Positions 2,166 to 22,261 of a DNA stretch of 22,621 nucleotides are shown piece after piece. The stretch lies in the IMG/VR virus record IMGVR_UViG_3300031671_000015, positions 1 to 22,621 of that record, one strand, 5' to 3'. The translations under genes were made by a program, and so were the position numbers. The DNA comes from a virus. How positions within the stretch are numbered: the first letter of the stretch is position 1; each line of letters starts with the position of its first letter. The notes under the pieces are model-generated. The model ran no database searches. It was not told where the DNA came from and was given only the letters and a program-made list of their open reading frames with translations.

Positions 2166-2521
2166 TAGGTCAGGACTCCGAAATATGACTTTTCCACTTG
2201 CGCCACATCCGAAGCGTCCAAGATGTAGAGGGTAGCGTATCCGCTGGCAAAATCATTAACCGTTATGGGGTCTAGGCCGCTGCCGGTCACGCAGGCCATT
2301 CCAAAATTAAGGAAATTCTTGAACTGCCTGAGCAGATTCGGATGGACGCATAGCCCCGAGCCTAGAAGCGAACCTGTCGGGAACTGGGCGTGGACGAAAT
2401 CGAAGAACCACCGGGAAGCGGCGGCGCGGTAGTAGACGGTCAGTTGCCCCGCGCTCCCATCCGGCATTTGCAGTTGCACCTGCTGGAAGGCGGCATTTGA
2501 GAGGTTGTCGACGGTGATCAT
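2165..2521 (-). CDS. baseplate plug protein, Pam3 gp18-like
   Basis: A 118-aa protein beginning at an ATG that overlaps the preceding stop as ATGA. The sequence FQQVQLQMPDGSAGQLTVYY followed by WFFDFVH and a C-terminal DPITVNDFASGYATLYIL matches the small beta-rich plug domain described for cyanophage Pam3 gp18. That domain closes the tail lumen above the hub. Its position directly upstream of the hub gene agrees with this role. I assign it from pattern recognition of the family and context; there is no catalytic motif to confirm. Confidence 0.7.
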   Translation of the reverse strand: MITVDNLSNAAFQQVQLQMPDGSAGQLTVYYRAAASRWFFDFVHAQFPTGSLLGSGLCVHPNLLRQFKNFLNFGMACVTGSGLDPITVNDFASGYATLYILDASDVAQVEKSYFGVLT

Positions 2522-3408
2522 GACACCACCGAGAGATTGAGCGGATTTGTCGGAGAGACTAGGGACGCGATGGGCGTCGGCGTTCCAGGGGTCGATCCGT
2601 TGAGACTCAGCGGCTGGCGTTGAGACTGCGCGCGCCCCTGGCTCTTATTGACCGTGCTGGCCGGCGTCTCGGAGCCCGAGATTGGCACCACCCGGATTTG
2701 CTTCATGCTCACCGTGATCTCGGTCTTGGACGGCGTGTTCTCCGGCTGGATCAAATCGACCGACTCGATCATCATGTTCTGCAGCGTCGTCCAGGGCGTG
2801 ACCACATTAAAGAGGGCATGGTTGCCAAGAAGCGTGGAAAGGGTCGCGTAGGCCGCCTGCTGCTTGTTAGGCGCCCCGTTGCCGCTCTTAAAGAGCGAGG
2901 CGATGGTCTGAGCCTGGTTGAGATATTGGTTTGCCTCGTTGACATAGTTCTGCGCCTTGGCCACGGCTCCGTTTACCTGATTGGTCAGCTTTTGCAGGGC
3001 TCCGGGCGTGTATTTCCCCAGGTAGGCTGGGATCGACCCCATCTTTTGAGCGACGGTGTTTAGGATGCCGACCACGCCGCCTTTAGGGTTTGGCAGAACA
3101 TACTCGCCGACATAGCCTGAGAGCGAGCAATGGATGGGCGCGATGGCAGAGTGATCCTGGATGGCGGCGTTGTCCTCTGCCCAATGGTCGGTAATCTCCG
3201 CGGCCAAATGTAGGCTGTCCTCGGCGAAGGTATCGAATAGAAATCCACCGATGCCGACTAGACCCTTGGGTTGCAAAAATTTAAGGCCGGTCAGGTTGCT
3301 TAGATAGCTGGTAATGGCGGATGGCTGGCCGTTGAGGGCGCCCTGGATGTTTGTAAACGCCCCGGAGACCGTCCGCGCCGCGCCGTTGGTGTAGTCCGTG
3401 ATGGCCAT
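2518..3408 (-). CDS. Dit-like / tail tube initiator-type baseplate protein
   Basis: A 296-aa protein after the tape measure. The block about residues 68-115 (DSLHLAAEITDHWAEDNAAIQDHSAIAPIHCSLSGYVGEYVLP) is the signature of Dit-like N-terminal domains in contractile and siphovirus baseplates. A second conserved patch near residues 205-240 (TPWTTLQNMMIESVDL, then TEITVSMKQIRVV) is also typical. The middle (about 120-185) is a predicted helical or coiled stretch and the last 50 residues are Pro/Ser/Thr-rich and probably flexible. It probably forms the first ring below the tail tube. The start at 3408 lies three bases after the tape-measure stop and has only a weak Shine-Dalgarno, so coupling to upstream translation is likely. 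Confidence 0.7.
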   Translation of the reverse strand: MAITDYTNGAARTVSGAFTNIQGALNGQPSAITSYLSNLTGLKFLQPKGLVGIGGFLFDTFAEDSLHLAAEITDHWAEDNAAIQDHSAIAPIHCSLSGYVGEYVLPNPKGGVVGILNTVAQKMGSIPAYLGKYTPGALQKLTNQVNGAVAKAQNYVNEANQYLNQAQTIASLFKSGNGAPNKQQAAYATLSTLLGNHALFNVVTPWTTLQNMMIESVDLIQPENTPSKTEITVSMKQIRVVPISGSETPASTVNKSQGRAQSQRQPLSLNGSTPGTPTPIASLVSPTNPLNLSVVS

Positions 3409-12319: not shown

Positions 12320-12370
12320 AAAACGAAAGACCCCGCGAAAGCTCAAAAGATTTCAAGCTCTCGCGGGGTC
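12320..12370 (-). terminator. rho-independent terminator before the capsid genes
   Basis: A 15-bp stem with one mismatch (12329-12343 with 12356-12370) and a 12-base loop. On the minus strand it is followed by TTTCGTTTT. It lies just downstream of the 68-aa gene and just upstream of the protease-scaffold start, so it should end or attenuate transcripts coming from the minor head gene. Confidence 0.8.
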
Positions 12371-12407
12371 CTGGTTTAGGATGCCCGCTTATTCGGCGGC
12401 GTGGGGA

Positions 12408-12627: not shown

Positions 12628-14541
12628 TCAATCGAAGGCGCTGGCAGGAATCTTGTCGCCAATCCTGATGGCCAGAGTGGACTCCGTCTCGACAATGGGC
12701 TCGCAAACGCAGCGGCAGTTTGATACAATGAGCCCTTCTGTTGTATAATACCCCAGTGTAGTTTGGAAATTATAAACATACCCGGAGTATTTAACATGGC
12801 TGACACGCTTAACCCGATCCATCGTCCCGCATCCAATCGCCTGCAATTTGATCCAAGTCCCATCATTCGAGCCTATCTTGACGGGGAGAGTGAGCTTTCC
12901 ATTTCCAAACGAACGGGATATGAACGAGTTGTAATTAGACGCCGTCTCCTTGAGGCTGGTGTCCACATCCGTAATGGTTCCGAAGCCAATCTTATCAGGT
13001 TTTCCAAAATGTCTGCCACCGCGCGGAAGCGGCTGGCTGCCCCGGCTCATGCGGCCGCTAGGAAGATTGCGCCGTCCGTGCGCCGCCAATGGCTGGAGAA
13101 AGCCGCCTTGACGAAATGCAAACGGATCGGGCATGGTGAGAGAGAACTTATGGACATTCTTATCCAACGCGGATTGCCTGCCGAGCCGCAACGGGCTTGT
13201 GGCGCTTATAACATCGACATTTCCGTTGGCTCCGTCGCCGTGGAATTGATCAGCCTTCCCTGGGAAAGAAAAGCTAAGGCCAGATTTCCTGAGCGATTTA
13301 AATACCTCGCTGATCATGGGTATACGCTCATTTCTATATTTTCCTGGGAGATAGGCCAAGTCTTTGGACAGGTCAATGAGATAGTCAGAATCATTGAGGA
13401 CACCTATCGGCTTCCACCCATCCAACGTAAGCACAGGATGATTAGGTGTGGCTCGAATCGTTTTACCCGATTCAAGAACGAGCGTGGTCAATTCGCCGCT
13501 AAACCAGCGCCGGAAACATTTTTCTATACCTCCTCCGAAATCAATCCGTAGATCACCGGGAAGGCAGTTATAATCCTCCCCGGCGTTCTCAGGTTCGCCC
13601 GTGCTCATGTATTGCGCCGGCGCCTTCTGCGCGAAAGAGAACACTCTGCCGTTTAGCTCCTTGTGCCCCGGGCGCACGTCGCCGTCTCCCGCCGTCCGCC
13701 AGACATACCGGAAGATGTTCGCCTTCTGGTATTTCTCCGAGGCGTAGATGGTCATGAAGAGATTCGTCTCTTGCCGGGCCAGGAAGCGCGCCTTGGACTG
13801 CGAGACGCCGTAGCGGCCACCGATGTCCTGGATGAGCGAGGTCGAACGGTAGCCGCCGCGGGCATTGCTCTCAACGATGCCGCGCAGCTCCTTAATCTCG
13901 TCCTCAGCGAAGCGCTTTATCCAGAGCTTCATGTTGTTGGTGTAGAGAGCCGCCATGCGCTTCTTGTCTTCCTCCGTCGCCTGGTCAAACGGGATGCCGA
14001 CTCGCTTGGCGATGGATTTGAAGTGAGTTGCAAAGTGGCCATCCGCCTGCCTGGTCATCTTGTCGGCGCCTAGCTCCTTTGGCGTGATGCGGTCTATCTG
14101 CCGGCGAAGCATCTCATCCGCGGTGGCCAGGAACTGGCGCATCTTGCCGTTAGCGATAGCGCACTTGCGCCCGAAGGCTTCGGCCGCCCGCTGGACTTCC
14201 GGCGGAACCGCATCATTTGCGATGGTGTAGATGCCGCTGCGGTGGTCGAACCGGCCGCCCATGGCTCGTATCGCCCGCCCCAGCGTGGCCGAGAAGCGCC
14301 CGGAGAACACGCCATTGCGATACTGGATCACGCCGCGCTCTAGGGCCTTGGCCAGAGCCTTGGCGTCAGAGTCCATGGAGGCTTCGCGTATCTCCTTGCC
14401 CGCGTTGATTCCAAGCTCCGATTTTATGATGTCGGCCAGGGGCTTGAAGATGAGTTCGTAGAAAATCGCGCGCAGGCCATCATCCACTGGCTCGTAGGCC
14501 CTGCTTGATGGATGATAGCCCGGCAGCGCGATCCGCGGCAT
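12628..14541 (-). CDS. Mu gpF-like minor head (head morphogenesis) protein interrupted by an intein
   Basis: A 637-codon frame. Residues about 240-325 plus 609-620 form the conserved C-terminal domain of SPP1 gp7 / Mu gpF minor head proteins: YGVSQSKARFLARQETN, then FRYVWRTAGDGDVRPGHKELNGRVF, and the closing GEDYN + CRCVCEP. In normal relatives the last two pieces are continuous. Here 283 residues with intein blocks separate N325 from C609. Splicing would yield a 354-aa protein that sits near the portal inside the head. ATG 14541 touches the preceding stop (TAAATG). The intein insertion point is the most conserved motif of the family, as expected for a homing element. Confidence 0.88.
   Translation of the reverse strand: MPRIALPGYHPSSRAYEPVDDGLRAIFYELIFKPLADIIKSELGINAGKEIREASMDSDAKALAKALERGVIQYRNGVFSGRFSATLGRAIRAMGGRFDHRSGIYTIANDAVPPEVQRAAEAFGRKCAIANGKMRQFLATADEMLRRQIDRITPKELGADKMTRQADGHFATHFKSIAKRVGIPFDQATEEDKKRMAALYTNNMKLWIKRFAEDEIKELRGIVESNARGGYRSTSLIQDIGGRYGVSQSKARFLARQETNLFMTIYASEKYQKANIFRYVWRTAGDGDVRPGHKELNGRVFSFAQKAPAQYMSTGEPENAGEDYNCLPGDLRIDFGGGIEKCFRRWFSGELTTLVLESGKTIRATPNHPVLTLDGWKPIGVLNDSDYLIDLSKDLAYLPGKYRNERIPMISEVFKSLRKSGLSFSFPGKADQFHGDGANGNVDVISATSPLRLGRQSALDKNVHKFSLTMPDPFAFRQGGFLQPLAAHGRRNLPSGRMSRGSQPLPRGGRHFGKPDKIGFGTITDVDTSLKETASNYNSFISRSFGNGKLTLPVKIGSNDGTWIKLQAIGCGTMDRVKRVSHVKYSGYVYNFQTTLGYYTTEGLIVSNCRCVCEPIVETESTLAIRIGDKIPASAFD
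12720..12749 (+). promoter_or_regulatory. promoter for the antisense endonuclease gene
   Basis: TTGATA (12720-12725), an 18-base spacer and a perfect TATAAT (12744-12749) on the plus strand, pointing into the endonuclease gene. The expected start is near 12756, giving a leader of about 40 bases. The promoter is embedded in codons for the last block of the intein; the -35 box begins at its final codon. Confidence 0.65.
12796..13551 (+). CDS. homing-endonuclease-like protein (Vsr/EDxHD type) encoded antisense to the intein
   Basis: This is the only convincing plus-strand gene, 251 aa, wholly inside the intein on the other strand. ATG 12796 is chosen because GGAG lies eight bases upstream; a TTG at 12763 is less likely. 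Residues about 20-70 look like a helix-turn-helix (AYLDGESELSISKRTGYERVVIRRRLLEAGVHIRN followed by GSEAN). A basic Ala-rich helical linker follows. Then comes a compact nuclease-like domain: GERELMD (E115), PQRACGAYNIDIS (Q132, D141), VAVELIS (E150), ERFKYLADHGYTLISIF. This order matches Vsr-fold homing endonucleases related to I-Bth0305I, with some residues of the EDxHD signature not evident. It probably cuts intein-less alleles of the minor head gene. The codon register is exactly complementary to the intein's. Confidence 0.75.
   Translation: MADTLNPIHRPASNRLQFDPSPIIRAYLDGESELSISKRTGYERVVIRRRLLEAGVHIRNGSEANLIRFSKMSATARKRLAAPAHAAARKIAPSVRRQWLEKAALTKCKRIGHGERELMDILIQRGLPAEPQRACGAYNIDISVGSVAVELISLPWERKAKARFPERFKYLADHGYTLISIFSWEIGQVFGQVNEIVRIIEDTYRLPPIQRKHRMIRCGSNRFTRFKNERGQFAAKPAPETFFYTSSEINP
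13556..13583 (+). terminator. possible hairpin terminator after the endonuclease gene
   Basis: CCGGGAAGG and CCTCCCCGG pair at 8 of 9 positions around a 10-base loop. It begins five bases after the endonuclease stop codon and spans the intein-extein junction. The following bases are only weakly T-rich, so termination is uncertain; constraint from the junction codons could also explain it. Confidence 0.35.
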
Positions 14542-15395: not shown

Positions 15396-17312
15396 TCAGT
15401 AAACCACATCGGAAACTGGTTGCTCGCCGCCGCCTTTGGGAGTCCCAATGCGGAAGGCGGAGCATTTGCACTCCTTGCCGCCGGACATGGCGGAGCAGGG
15501 GTCCAGGTCGCTGGAGTTGTGATGCTCGAAGTCGTGGCCGCAGTTGCACATGGCGGGGTCCTCGATCTGAGAGCGGCCGTCTTCGCCGTTAGTGCGAGAG
15601 ACATCAAAATCACCGCTCAACAATTCCTGAGACAAAGTGGCCAAAGACCGAGTCTTAGTCTTAATCTTGACACCAAGTTCTTTTTCCATATCGGCTATGC
15701 TCTTGCCATTTTTCCAGCCATCAACCACTTTGCGCTTAAGGTCATCATTGACCCCGTTCTTATGCTCCTTGAACCATTGCACTTCGCCTTCGTGCTTGGC
15801 CGCCTTGGCATGGCTCGGGAAATCGCCCAGGTTCTTGCCCTTGTGGGACAGGAGCCTGAAGTCGTGCTCGCCTTCCTTGACGATGTGGTTTTTGCGATCC
15901 ATGCCAAAAACTGTTTGTTCGGGTCCTACCAATCCTTCCCGGCAGGCCCTACTCATGGCATTGTGTGCTTTTTCCGATGGAAAACCTGCGGCTTCAAGTT
16001 TGCTCTGAGCGCGTTCAAACGAGAAATTCTTGAACATATGAAGATTGCGTTTGATGAATTCATAGGCATCGCTCATATTCTGGCGATCCGCGCCTTTTGC
16101 AATGGATTGCAATTCCTGCTTCACTTCATCGAGCGCGCCGGGCACTTCGCTGGCGTGGAGTCCTTGGCGCAGTTCCATGCCGTTGTGGTAGATGGAGAAG
16201 TCATCGCGGCCCATCTCGCGGACCTCGGGCTTGGCCGCGTTGCCGTGTTCGCGCCCTTTGCTTTTTGCGGCCAATGGCGTCAATGCCTCGCGGTTCGGAA
16301 TGTGGTCCGAGGCGAGATGCTTTCCCACCTTCCCGCAGTTCGGAATGCGGCAGAAGTCATGCGCTTCTTGGCAACCTGCGGGGCAGATCGCAAGATGTTG
16401 GCCGGCGTTGCCGTGTTCGCGCGCCTCGCTATTCCTGCGGCCATGGGCATCCTCGTATGATGTTTTCCAAATACGTTTTACTTCGGATGGCTGCTCGCTA
16501 TAAGGTTTTAGTTTGCCGTAACGCGCCCCGGAAACATCAACAACTGCCTTATCTCCCAATCCCAAAAAGCCAAGCATATCCTTCCCATGCAGTTCCCAGG
16601 CTCGAGCAAGTTCCGATTCGGAGGCGTTGTCCCGCGCGAATTCCGGCTCCATCTCTCCCAACTCATGCTCGATGCCTTCCACATGGCGCCCGATCTCGGC
16701 GATGTCGCCTTTCGGATTGGCGTTTTTGTGCGCCGATGCCGACATGTCATCCAGCAGTAGCCCTAGGTTCTGGGCCTCCTGCCGCATCTCTGCCATCCGC
16801 GCGCCCTGGTCCTCGCCTTCATCCATGGCCGAGAGCTTGTCCGATAGGGCCTGGATGGACATGGCGATGGCCGCCTTAGCGTCCGGAGCCGCGTTCTTGC
16901 GCTCCACGCTCGGGTCTATGCGATAGACATTTCCCGCCGAATCGGTAAACGGCAGGCCCTCCCATTTGAAATCGACGATCTCCTCGCTGGGCATCATGTC
17001 CGCGATGACATTGGCCGCCTGGATGCCGGGCTGATCGAGGTCAAGCAAAAAGACCTCCGTCGGCATGGGCGCCGAGCGCTTCATGCCGTGCTGCGGAAGT
17101 TTGTTGTTCAGGAGCTCCACGGAGATGCCGAGTTCCTCATGTGCCTCGCGCATGGCGGCGTCCCTGGGAGATTCCCGCGCGTCGATGTGGCCGCCGGGCA
17201 GGCCCCAGAAGCCGTCGCGCTCCTTGACTACCAGCACATTGCCGCCGTTGACCACCATGATACGAGCCCGCGGGCCCATGTCCTTTCTCACATCGTCAAA
17301 CCAGTTGCTCAT
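15396..17312 (-). CDS. Nudix hydrolase domain fused to zinc-finger and helical regions (638 aa)
   Basis: The N-terminus (about residues 15-130) is a Nudix domain with a complete Nudix box from G41 to I63 (GHIDARE-x7-REAHEELGI). Such domains hydrolyse nucleoside diphosphates linked to another moiety; the substrate here is unknown. The rest is a long helical protein with a central Cys/His cluster (C310, C314, C321, C326 with nearby His), flanked by two EHGNA repeats. At the end is a second cluster (CNCGH at 589-593, H597, H598, C606, CKC at 615-617). A basic segment near residue 525-560 resembles a helix-turn-helix. The start makes an ATGA overlap with the portal stop. A Nudix fusion inside the head module is unusual; it might be an ejected or virion-bound protein. 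Confidence 0.7.
   Translation of the reverse strand: MSNWFDDVRKDMGPRARIMVVNGGNVLVVKERDGFWGLPGGHIDARESPRDAAMREAHEELGISVELLNNKLPQHGMKRSAPMPTEVFLLDLDQPGIQAANVIADMMPSEEIVDFKWEGLPFTDSAGNVYRIDPSVERKNAAPDAKAAIAMSIQALSDKLSAMDEGEDQGARMAEMRQEAQNLGLLLDDMSASAHKNANPKGDIAEIGRHVEGIEHELGEMEPEFARDNASESELARAWELHGKDMLGFLGLGDKAVVDVSGARYGKLKPYSEQPSEVKRIWKTSYEDAHGRRNSEAREHGNAGQHLAICPAGCQEAHDFCRIPNCGKVGKHLASDHIPNREALTPLAAKSKGREHGNAAKPEVREMGRDDFSIYHNGMELRQGLHASEVPGALDEVKQELQSIAKGADRQNMSDAYEFIKRNLHMFKNFSFERAQSKLEAAGFPSEKAHNAMSRACREGLVGPEQTVFGMDRKNHIVKEGEHDFRLLSHKGKNLGDFPSHAKAAKHEGEVQWFKEHKNGVNDDLKRKVVDGWKNGKSIADMEKELGVKIKTKTRSLATLSQELLSGDFDVSRTNGEDGRSQIEDPAMCNCGHDFEHHNSSDLDPCSAMSGGKECKCSAFRIGTPKGGGEQPVSDVVY
16237..16422. 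repeat. 18-bp direct repeat pair inside the Nudix fusion gene
   Basis: GCGTTGCCGTGTTCGCGC occurs at 16237-16254 and again at 16405-16422, encoding the two REHGNA-type peptides that flank the central Cys/His cluster. A shorter repeat (GTTCGGAATG) lies between them. This suggests internal duplication of a small zinc-binding unit. Confidence 0.7.
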
Positions 17313-19815: not shown

Positions 19816-19840
19816 GGGACTTATATACTTAGCTCAACCA
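19816..19840. repeat. left terminal inverted repeat of the transposon
   Basis: Begins GGGACTTATATACTTAGCTC and is the imperfect inverse of 22310-22334, with 20 of 25 positions matching. It overlaps the last codons of the restriction endonuclease gene. Confidence 0.75.
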
Positions 19841-20547
19841 ATGCGCTCTTTCTTTGAGTAAATGCGGCATACGTCTTTAGGAGAAATCCTGAATTTAGTG
19901 CCATGATTGCGGAGGCCCTTGCTATCCGGCTTTGCCTCCCTGCAATCGAAGTCAATCTTGATTGTTCCAGCCGCCACTTCCCACACAAAGAAATTAAGCT
20001 CTAAATCCTCAAAACAGTCTGTGCGGTCATAAGTGATCTTTTGGCCCTTCCTAACCCCATGAACCAGGACTAACCGGCGCAACTTGGCTCCTGCCGATCC
20101 CATGATGGAGTCGAAGGTCCAATGCGGAACCTGTCCATTAGGGTTTTTTAGCGGCCTTATGATAATCCGGTCATTATCCGTCTCGACTTTGAACATATCG
20201 GATTTGCCCTCAATCGTATGCCGAAAGCTAAGACGGCCCTTGGCGTCCTTCCAGCCCCACTTACTGACCATATAGCGCATGATGCCTTCGGGCTCGGGCT
20301 CTTTGTGGAATAGCGTTATCAGGTTGGTATCTGGCGAATAAAATTTAAGTTCCCATCCTAGCGTATCCGGCACATCTCTATTCCCCGTCGAAAGCCCGAG
20401 TAAATCTTCAAGATACAGACCGGGGGCTCCGGTCCCTGAATACTTCTCCGTTGGCATTTCGTATTTACCATGTTGAACGATTGCGCTAAGACGTTCAAAG
20501 AGTTCTTTCCTGTTTTTTGGAGGGGCGGGCTTGTCGGGAATTGTCAT
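19834..20547 (-). CDS. MvaI/BcnI-type restriction endonuclease
   Basis: A 237-aa protein. Residues 37-68 carry the family signature: SGTGAPGLYLEDLLGL, then NRDVPDTLGWELKFY, with the PD-(D/E)xK catalytic set D61, E66, K68. MvaI and BcnI are monomeric type II enzymes that nick CC(W/S)GG strands sequentially; the target of this one is not known. The start overlaps the methyltransferase stop as ATGA, and the end reaches into the transposon's inverted repeat. Length is close to that of MvaI (about 250 aa). The frame looks intact. Confidence 0.8.
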   Translation of the reverse strand: MTIPDKPAPPKNRKELFERLSAIVQHGKYEMPTEKYSGTGAPGLYLEDLLGLSTGNRDVPDTLGWELKFYSPDTNLITLFHKEPEPEGIMRYMVSKWGWKDAKGRLSFRHTIEGKSDMFKVETDNDRIIIRPLKNPNGQVPHWTFDSIMGSAGAKLRRLVLVHGVRKGQKITYDRTDCFEDLELNFFVWEVAAGTIKIDFDCREAKPDSKGLRNHGTKFRISPKDVCRIYSKKERIG

Positions 20548-21350
20548 TTTTTCATGAGTCGTCGTGATGCCTGGATTCTTTCCCTTGCCAGCTTGCAGTA
20601 ATCCTTTGAGAGTTCAAAGCCGATCCAGTCCCGCTTACAGACTTCGGCGGCTATGGCCGTCGTTCCCGAGCCCATGAACGGATCGAGTACGATTTTGGCA
20701 TTTGTGGACTGGATGCACCTTTGAGCTAATTCTATCGGAAAAGGAGCTGGATGGGGATTATTGTTTTCCTGGGGAATTTGCCAAACGTCCCCCGCCGCGT
20801 TTGCCTTATCCGCAAGTCGAAAGTCCGGCTTGCAGATTAGATAAATAACCTCATAGGTCGGGAGGAAATATCCCGCGTTGAAATTGAAGCCGCCCGAGCG
20901 TTTCCAGATGATGATTTGACGGACTGGGAAGCCTTCGACAATATCATGGCGGTCCTGTAAAACTCCGTCTTGAACGCGCCACTTGTGGTTATAGAAAATC
21001 GCGCCATCTTCACGGAGAACGCGCATCATAGAAGCAATGCAATCGCGTTGCCATTTAACGTATTCCTCATGAGGCATACAGTCGTCGTGATTCTCGTAGC
21101 CTTTTATCAGTTTCGCATTGGCCCACTTCCCGCCGCGTCCGTCCTTCATGCCGTTTCCGGTGCTGTTGCGTAGGTTATAGGGCGGGCTCGTTACGATCAG
21201 GTCCACGGAGCCTACGGGCATACGGTTCATGAGTTCAATACAATCCCCATCATGAACTTGATTTAACCAAGCCTTCAACGCTGATAACGGAACCCGAGTA
21301 ACCGCCGCTCTAAGTAGGTCGAACATGGCGAGGGAATGTTGTTTGTTCAT
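20544..21350 (-). CDS. beta-class DNA amino-methyltransferase (N4-cytosine or N6-adenine), modification partner
   Basis: A 268-aa protein with catalytic motif IV TSPPYN (54-59) before the AdoMet motif DPFMGSGTT (223-231). This is the order of beta-class enzymes. A serine in SPPY favours N4-methylcytosine, which would suit an MvaI/BcnI partner. Other motifs include REDGAIFYNHKWR and the FELSKDYCKLARERI end. It overlaps the transposase stop (ATGA) and the endonuclease start (ATGA), so the modification enzyme is translated before the endonuclease. No separate control protein is present. Confidence 0.88.
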   Translation of the reverse strand: MNKQHSLAMFDLLRAAVTRVPLSALKAWLNQVHDGDCIELMNRMPVGSVDLIVTSPPYNLRNSTGNGMKDGRGGKWANAKLIKGYENHDDCMPHEEYVKWQRDCIASMMRVLREDGAIFYNHKWRVQDGVLQDRHDIVEGFPVRQIIIWKRSGGFNFNAGYFLPTYEVIYLICKPDFRLADKANAAGDVWQIPQENNNPHPAPFPIELAQRCIQSTNAKIVLDPFMGSGTTAIAAEVCKRDWIGFELSKDYCKLARERIQASRRLMKK

Positions 21351-22261
21351 GCCACTAACCCCTTATAAGTTAGGCGCATTCCCGAGGAATGGCCGAGCAA
21401 AGAATCTAACCGGCTTTCCTGGGATAACTGCCCCATGTTCCAACGTGTCTCAAACTCAGCGAGATAACGCGGTAAGTGCTTCCAGGTGAAATGATGAAAC
21501 ACGCCGTAATAGCCGCGCTTTAAGAGCGCCCAAAAGCTCTCTATCCCGTTGGTGTAGGCTTGCCCACGGACGTATTCCCGCATACTGTGATTGACGCTCT
21601 CATGGTCGTAATCTTTGAGCCCGAGATATGACCTATGATCGTCCGTGTAGAGCTTCGATCCGGCAACCACGTTTTGCTTAATGAAGTCGTGAAGCTGGTC
21701 CTTTTCCGTGTTGGGGATCATTTTAGTCTTAACCCTGCCGCCTCTTTCACGCGCTCCAATTACGGCCTGTTTGCCGGACGGTCCGCGTCCCTCATGGAGC
21801 TTTTTATCGAAGTGTTTGTTTTTCTCTTTGCCGCCCAAATACGTTTCGTCGGCTTCAACGATCCCGCTGATGGGTCCACCGATCGCGCCCATTGCCCCCG
21901 CAACCTCTCTAAGCCGCCCAAGCATGAACCAAGCCGTTTTCTGCGTCACGCCGATTTCACGCGCCAACTGACAACTGCTGATCCCCTTCCTATTTGAAGT
22001 GAGAAGGAACGCGGCGGCAAACCACTGGCGCAAAGGAAGGCGGCTCTCTTCAAAAATTGTACCCTTTCGGACCGAAAACATTTTGCGGCAATCGGCGCAT
22101 TTATAGCCTTCACCACGCGATACATGATACACTTTTCTACAGCTTCCACAACAGGGGCAAACAATGCCTTTCGGCCAGCGCATTTTTTCAAGATGTTCAA
22201 TACATGATTTCTCCGTCGGAAAATTCTCTAGCATCTGGAAAAGTCCTTTTTCTTTTTTCAC
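21347..22261 (-). CDS. IS1595-family (ISXO2-like) transposase
   Basis: A 304-aa transposase. The N-terminal zinc ribbon has C35 with C37/C38 (CPCCG) and C55, C58. A helix-turn-helix follows (GISSCQLAREIGVTQKTAWFMLGRLR). The ISXO2 catalytic domain has VEADETYLGG (D138), LYTDDHRSY (D207/D208), and NGIESFWALLKRGYYGVFHH (N238, E241, K248). These correspond to the DDN(E/K)-type catalytic core of the family. GTG 22261 is used with AAGGAG nine bases upstream. Its stop overlaps the methyltransferase start, so the cargo is expressed from the transposase promoter. The frame is intact. Confidence 0.92.
   Translation of the reverse strand: MKKEKGLFQMLENFPTEKSCIEHLEKMRWPKGIVCPCCGSCRKVYHVSRGEGYKCADCRKMFSVRKGTIFEESRLPLRQWFAAAFLLTSNRKGISSCQLAREIGVTQKTAWFMLGRLREVAGAMGAIGGPISGIVEADETYLGGKEKNKHFDKKLHEGRGPSGKQAVIGARERGGRVKTKMIPNTEKDQLHDFIKQNVVAGSKLYTDDHRSYLGLKDYDHESVNHSMREYVRGQAYTNGIESFWALLKRGYYGVFHHFTWKHLPRYLAEFETRWNMGQLSQESRLDSLLGHSSGMRLTYKGLVA

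Follow-up and report, generated by a model that had tools for sequence, protein, structure and literature searches.

We analyzed a virus record of 22.6 kb, hereafter the window, i.e. the whole stretch of 22,621 nucleotides. The features considered are collected in Table 1. On the minus strand, a gene interrupted by an intein encodes a product that matches Phage_Mu_F (6e-10), TIGR01641 (3e-13) and phrog_15127 (2e-58). On the plus strand, a frame open from 12724 to a stop at 13551 contains a second gene, predicted to encode a nuclease, which lies back to back with the intein coding sequence.

Several other elements were observed in the window. The minus strand carries a restriction-modification pair (19834-21350), in which a MvaI/BcnI-family restriction endonuclease (1e-24) overlaps an N6/N4 DNA methylase (1e-39). 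An IS1595/ISXO2-type transposase (21347-22261, minus strand) adjoins the methylase gene in this compact phage contig, and a 638-aa ORF of the phage structural region (15396-17312, minus strand) has a NUDIX domain at its start. A strong terminator-like hairpin of 20 pairs (12327-12372, minus strand) precedes a DUF2213 gene immediately upstream, and separates it from the intein-bearing gene.

Table 1. Coordinates of the genes, motifs and candidate signals of the intein-bearing locus (positions in the window)
Feature	Position	Strand	Remarks
Host gene: MuF-like (SPP1 gp7-type) minor head/head morphogenesis protein precursor	12628..14541	-	637 aa, intein-interrupted
Intein	12718..13566	-	283 aa, Cys1...Asn283, then +1 Cys of MuF CRC motif
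Candidate sigma-70-like promoter TTGATA-N18-TATAAT	12720..12749	+	consensus match; in last intein codons
Intein block F	12766..12780	-	YVYNF in window (usually HVYNL); mirror in relatives is nuclease Shine-Dalgarno and start codon
Shine-Dalgarno GGAG	12784..12787	+	8 nt ahead of ATG 12796
Antisense gene: putative homing endonuclease, HTH and Vsr-fold nuclease	12796..13551	+	251 aa; wholly inside intein
Predicted N-terminal helix-turn-helix DNA-binding region	12856..12954	+	HTH families in relatives; helices 21-53
Putative catalytic Glu115 codon	13138..13140	+	invariant 56/56
Mirrored block	13207..13245	both	nuclease core YNIDISVGSVAVE (+), intein peptide FHGDGANGNVDVI (-)
Putative catalytic Asp141 codon	13216..13218	+	invariant 56/56; opposite intein Val117
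Putative catalytic Glu150 codon (GAA)	13243..13245	+	invariant 56/56; opposite intein Phe108
Intein block B TPNH, splicing active site	13438..13449	-	mirror is nuclease C-terminal MIRC (VIRC/VIRG in relatives)

The intein and the antisense nuclease

The minus-strand element has the splicing blocks of a Hint intein: Cys1, the TxxH of block B, block F, a C-terminal Asn and a Cys, Ser or Thr at position +1. The window intein matches Intein_splicing (1e-9), as do 56/56 members of the intein alignment, in which C1, T40, N42 and H43 are invariant and N283 is nearly invariant. In the AlphaFold model the Hint parts are ordered, and residues 126-235 form a disordered linker (pLDDT of about 40). Fold-search matches of the sense product over the same DNA were inteins, and a search for an in-frame endonuclease in the sense linker matched no nuclease family in the 56 members.

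Taken alone, the antisense protein of the window had a sole and weak match, to REase_MTES_1575 (0.003), and its comparison with the PDB, PHROGs and NCBIfam gave nothing useful, so that a profile was needed. This profile was built from 56 antisense proteins, from the window and from viral contigs; one relative, L001, is 58% identical to the window nuclease. Against the PDB it matched the endonuclease-like protein 3hrl (1.3e-7), the homing endonuclease I-Bth0305I (3r3p, 3.9e-4) and several HTH domains. The members themselves match the families MTES_1575 REase (29/56), HTH_23 (23/56) and DUF559 (6/56). An AlphaFold2 model of the nuclease was obtained with a pLDDT of 91.5, and in structural comparisons of this model Vsr ranked first (Z 11.9 over 113 residues, and 11.5), followed by 3hrl (Z 10.4) and I-Bth0305I (Z 10.3 over 93 residues). 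The predicted fold of the catalytic domain and the conserved acidic residues are those of the Vsr/EDxHD nucleases of the PD-(D/E)xK superfamily. One difference from EDxHD enzymes concerns the third site: it is a Glu in all members here, and a His lies close by (4-10 residues past E150, by sequence position) in no more than 32/56 of them. By predicted fold and aligned residues the nuclease appears to belong with Vsr and I-Bth0305I, and the profile and the model both indicate that the plus frame is a real gene, representing a real protein family.

Residue k of the nuclease lies opposite residue 258-k of the intein. The HTH half is therefore found opposite the disordered intein linker, and much of the nuclease core, together with the C-terminal strands, opposite the ordered N-terminal Hint half.

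Double coding, recurrence and selection on both strands

The initial annotation had described the block at 13207-13245 as an exact codon mirror, and both peptides are indeed read there letter for letter with identical triplet boundaries: FHGD is the exact codon mirror of VAVE, and the VDVI segment is located opposite YNID. Its reading of the plus frame as a nuclease is likewise supported by the profile and model, the block including the putative catalytic residues D141 and E150. Since the frame 12796-13551 sits wholly within the intein, double coding extends far beyond these 39 bases and spans nearly the whole 849-bp intein. Two unrelated proteins with predicted folds, including the putative active sites of both, appear to share this DNA codon for codon, back to back.

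As the initial annotation correctly stated, an open antisense frame in this register requires the avoidance of CTA, TTA and TCA. These codons represent 13 of the 2894 Leu and Ser codons inside 62 inteins less than 70% identical, compared to 358/3354 in the extein parts of these ORFs (Fisher p ~6e-82). Antisense stops in most homologous inteins bearing the same motif would, by its own criterion, have refuted the initial annotation; they were found in 0/80 cases in a search with the sense motif and free codons, and this check does not refute it. None of the 162 distinct inteins has an internal antisense stop (0/162), antisense stops being located only at the two ends of the nuclease gene. When the sense intein was used as query, the antisense frame was open for 200-620 codons across the linker in all loci examined, namely that of the window, those of six phages in GenBank and 80 from viral contigs, and the remaining two antisense registers were mostly closed or short in this same sample. 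A chance open frame was considered as a candidate, and is ruled out by the stop-codon counts and the extein control.

Ascertainment bias due to the use of the window intein as query was checked with a query restricted to the N-terminal splicing domain and with a free-codon sense motif. With the N-terminal splicing domain (67 residues), 80/80 loci match the nuclease model on the antisense strand; one of these, L170, is a broken nuclease remnant. With the sense motif FHGDG....V.VV, all codons being free, both the intein and the nuclease were present in 80/80 examined loci. When only the nuclease motif was searched for, as a DNA pattern, 69 loci were retrieved, with an intein opposite in 69/69 and no free-standing nuclease homologue among these matches. 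The antisense protein of Escherichia phage Snoke, used as a single query, matched one viral contig and no more. Double coding of this kind is present in many phage contigs.

With coinciding registers, any codon change falls into a synonymous or a nonsynonymous class for either strand separately. Antisense omega was taken as dNN/dNS, and the N-extein of the same genes served as control. Antisense omega is 0.62 (0.57-0.66) over 42 independent pairs, with a control of 1.07, and 0.34 (0.25-0.40) over 5 close pairs, with a control of 0.89, the omegas of the more divergent pairs being saturated and dependent on the protein alignments. Sense omega within the intein is 0.79 for the 42 pairs and 0.60 for the 5 close pairs. 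By region, the linker is near neutral on the sense strand (0.95) and constrained on the antisense strand (0.60); in the FHGD module and in Hint-N, both strands are under constraint, with a sense omega of 0.66-0.78 for the FHGD module. In cultured Guernseyvirinae (Snoke group), changes silent on both strands (SS) are the most frequent per site, NS and SN changes are fewer, and changes altering both proteins (NN) are the rarest. In the overlap, purifying selection acts on both frames; in the extein control, antisense omega is about 1.

These results refute the explanation that the sense strand alone codes, the antisense frame being open and conserved by mirroring. Part of the conservation does pass to the opposite strand, because the codon registers coincide, and in some high-GC contigs (L007) long antisense frames occur by chance. 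However, identity is higher in the antisense product than in the sense linker (55% vs 36%, with a sense omega of about 0.95), the antisense product matches known nuclease and HTH families, and it is modelled with high confidence (pLDDT 91.5) where the sense linker is disordered. The codon bias at the start and Shine-Dalgarno positions, presented below, and an extein control omega of about 1 also stand against mirroring, which is left with practically no probability.

The FHGD and VAVE motifs and the embedded start signals

The initial annotation had also suggested that one of the two motifs might be only the shadow of the other. This proposal is not supported in either direction, FHGD and VAVE each being kept beyond the needs of the other. 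E150 is encoded by GAA in 111/111 representatives (GAA accounts for 46% of Glu codons in the frame). Where position 149 is Val, the codon is GTG in 109/110 (background 23%), and where position 148 is Ala, it is GCC in 107/107 (background 46%). Since GAG would serve the nuclease as well, and GAA, GTG and GCC are nevertheless kept, the sense FHGD itself seems to be conserved. On the sense strand, nuclease-bearing copies never use TTT, and rarely use CAT or Gly codons other than GGC, changes which would alter VAVE.

A natural knock-out of the antisense nuclease was observed in one contig (L170, positions 2501-3020; the same contig as L441). The nuclease part is deleted and broken, and the shortened intein keeps FHGDG, with a Phe codon, TTT, which places a Lys in the position of the putative catalytic Glu. 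A search for FHGDG with TTT returned this one intein, plus unrelated matches. The codon bias at VAVE, the limits on sense codons and this deleted copy together argue that both strands are constrained and that neither motif is a mere shadow of the other.

In particular, FHGD...VDV could be functionless in the intein and conserved only as the mirror of the nuclease active site, as the exact opposition of FHGD and VAVE and the neutrality of most of the linker behind FHGD on the sense side would allow. We consider this unlikely: the three codon preferences exclude codons synonymous for the nuclease, FHGD belongs to the ordered part of the intein model, its module is under constraint on the sense side (omega 0.66-0.78), and the sole intein deleted for its endonuclease gene retains FHGDG, written with a codon that the nuclease could not tolerate. 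Both peptides might also be fixed by the DNA word itself, TTCCACGGCGAY, acting as a binding or regulatory site. This 12-mer is nearly invariant over very different GC contents, but variation (GAC/GAT, with Val/Ile opposite) does occur at points acceptable to both peptides, and both peptides are structurally justified, one as a catalytic strand and the other as an ordered intein module. A constraint on the word is possible but less likely than one on the peptides, and as the origin of both motifs we regard it as very improbable.

Signals for the expression of the antisense gene were examined in the C-terminal blocks of the intein. In the relatives, the mirror of block F (HVYNL) corresponds to a Shine-Dalgarno sequence and a start codon, of the form GGAGGTTnTAnAC-ATG. 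The His of block F is encoded by CAT, the mirror of ATG, in 44/51 cases, compared to 150/424 for other His codons; its Leu is encoded by CTC, the mirror of the GAG of the Shine-Dalgarno sequence, in 38/58 cases, compared to 611/2012 elsewhere. In the window ATA stands in place of the usual start, and translation would begin 6 codons downstream, at a start with its own GGAG; the lack of the usual start codon in this ORF counts against the explanation we prefer, namely a separately expressed antisense nuclease. The candidate promoter of the window starts two bases inside the intein end. A perfect TTGACA-N18-TATAAT is present at the same place, ~28 nt before the antisense start, in five relatives (L101, L103, L140, L144 and L147). 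Promoter scores exceed those of synonymous shuffles by 0.79 +/- 0.16 of 12 positions on average, the relatives being non-independent, and this excess is suggestive only of a promoter for the antisense gene. Promoter-like, ribosome-binding and start signals are found in antisense orientation within intein blocks F-G.

Probable mobility and comparison with known homing elements

Intein-free alleles were found in close relatives of intein-bearing phages. Escherichia phage Snoke carries the intein, and Bas72, whose exteins are ~91% identical, is uninterrupted at precisely the codon boundary concerned; KpTDp1 carries it and CWW26 (N-extein 98% identical) does not. These alleles suggest mobility. 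The nuclease is thus located within a predicted self-splicing element for which element-free alleles exist in relatives, as is the case for homing endonucleases. Relatives of the intein occur at other sites: a second MuF site, the terminase large subunit, a uracil-DNA glycosylase, a P22-type portal and an unidentified gene (L131, L207, L149, L203, L408, L185, L218, L062 and L220). Those that belong to the N-terminal-domain and nuclease-motif sets carry the antisense nuclease.

We consider it very likely that this is a mobile intein with homing, and that its endonuclease is made as a protein of its own from the opposite strand, in a codon-facing register; the antisense nuclease is probably the intein's own homing endonuclease. 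The homing role is deduced from context, because Vsr-like folds are also found in mismatch repair and in restriction enzymes. The antisense protein could accordingly be a real nuclease used for restriction, repair or action against competitors, and simply sitting in the intein, a role for which frames intact everywhere would indicate steady selection. The obligate association with an intein (69/69), the plus and minus alleles at the exact site and a spread to several genes, all of which fit homing, make such a role decidedly unlikely. Almost no degenerate nuclease copies were found among the loci examined, which is unusual for homing endonuclease genes and counts against the homing reading. 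Frame breaks are apparent at several points in one record, MG969409 (L459); since it is marked UNVERIFIED, it does not figure among the degenerate copies.

From the two genes and their mirror, the predicted folds, the conservation, the selection on both strands, the embedded signals and the plus and minus alleles described above, we infer that the antisense nuclease would be transcribed and translated, and would cleave DNA and promote homing. The head-protein precursor would be made from the minus strand, and the Hint domain would splice itself out at the junction between its Asn and the Cys that belongs to the MuF CRC motif. On the plus strand, the candidate promoter in the last intein codons, with the Shine-Dalgarno sequence and start in or near the mirror of block F, would lead to translation of the nuclease, which would stop just short of the intein end. 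The nuclease would then, most likely, cut the insertion site in host-gene alleles that lack the intein, in co-infecting phages, and repair of the cut allele would copy the intein in, allowing it to spread.

According to a review (PMC3943268), intein endonucleases are produced fused to the intein. In-frame homing inteins (LAGLIDADG/HNH, e.g. PI-SceI) resemble the present element in that a Hint domain and a nuclease gene form one mobile element, with intein-free alleles at the same site. They differ in that their nuclease is fused, whereas here it is a separate protein from the opposite strand, whose frame also runs over the splicing blocks. The nucleases I-Bth0305I/EDxHD and Vsr (3r3p, 1cw0) share with this one the predicted catalytic fold, the acidic residues and a phage setting; I-Bth0305I comes from a mobile intron, and the host element is here an intein. 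Antisense homing endonuclease genes occur in nuclear rDNA group I introns of Didymium and relatives. There too the nuclease gene lies within a splicing element and is read from the strand opposite to that of the host gene, but an intron need not code, so that there is no double protein coding, whereas both strands code here. Dassa et al. reportedly described in 2009 fractured-gene split inteins with Vsr-like endonucleases, in which a free-standing ORF lies between the split halves; a Vsr-type nuclease is again associated with inteins, but its ORF does not overlap them. Ambigrammatic narnaviruses use the same register, with avoidance of UUA, CUA and UCA, and need the reverse frame (PMC8316113). 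They are RNA viruses, whereas the present case is a DNA mobile element in which both products belong to known folded families. No report of an intein with an antisense endonuclease was found in the open-access literature.

It is likely that these loci represent a class of phage inteins that is large and lacks annotation. In it, two old and unrelated enzyme families of predicted fold, the Hint domain and a Vsr-type nuclease, would lie codon to codon, each active-site motif opposite coding sequence of the other, as a self-contained antisense homing unit with its promoter, ribosome site and start in the splicing blocks. Inteins are described as carrying their endonuclease in frame; here a widespread phage family probably carries it as an independent gene on the opposite strand. 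Annotation is affected, the antisense gene being annotated in none of the six GenBank regions opened first. With two ancient enzymes of predicted fold on one DNA duplex in mirror register, the family offers a strong natural example of bidirectional coding, such as has been discussed in relation to how aminoacyl-tRNA synthetases arose (PMC4082485) and such as ambigrammatic RNA viruses show. For the phages, antisense placement could give the nuclease a timing separate from that of the host gene, its own promoter freeing it from late-gene timing. The overlap may also shield the nuclease from decay and keep its genes intact, because frameshifts would at the same time break the essential head protein.
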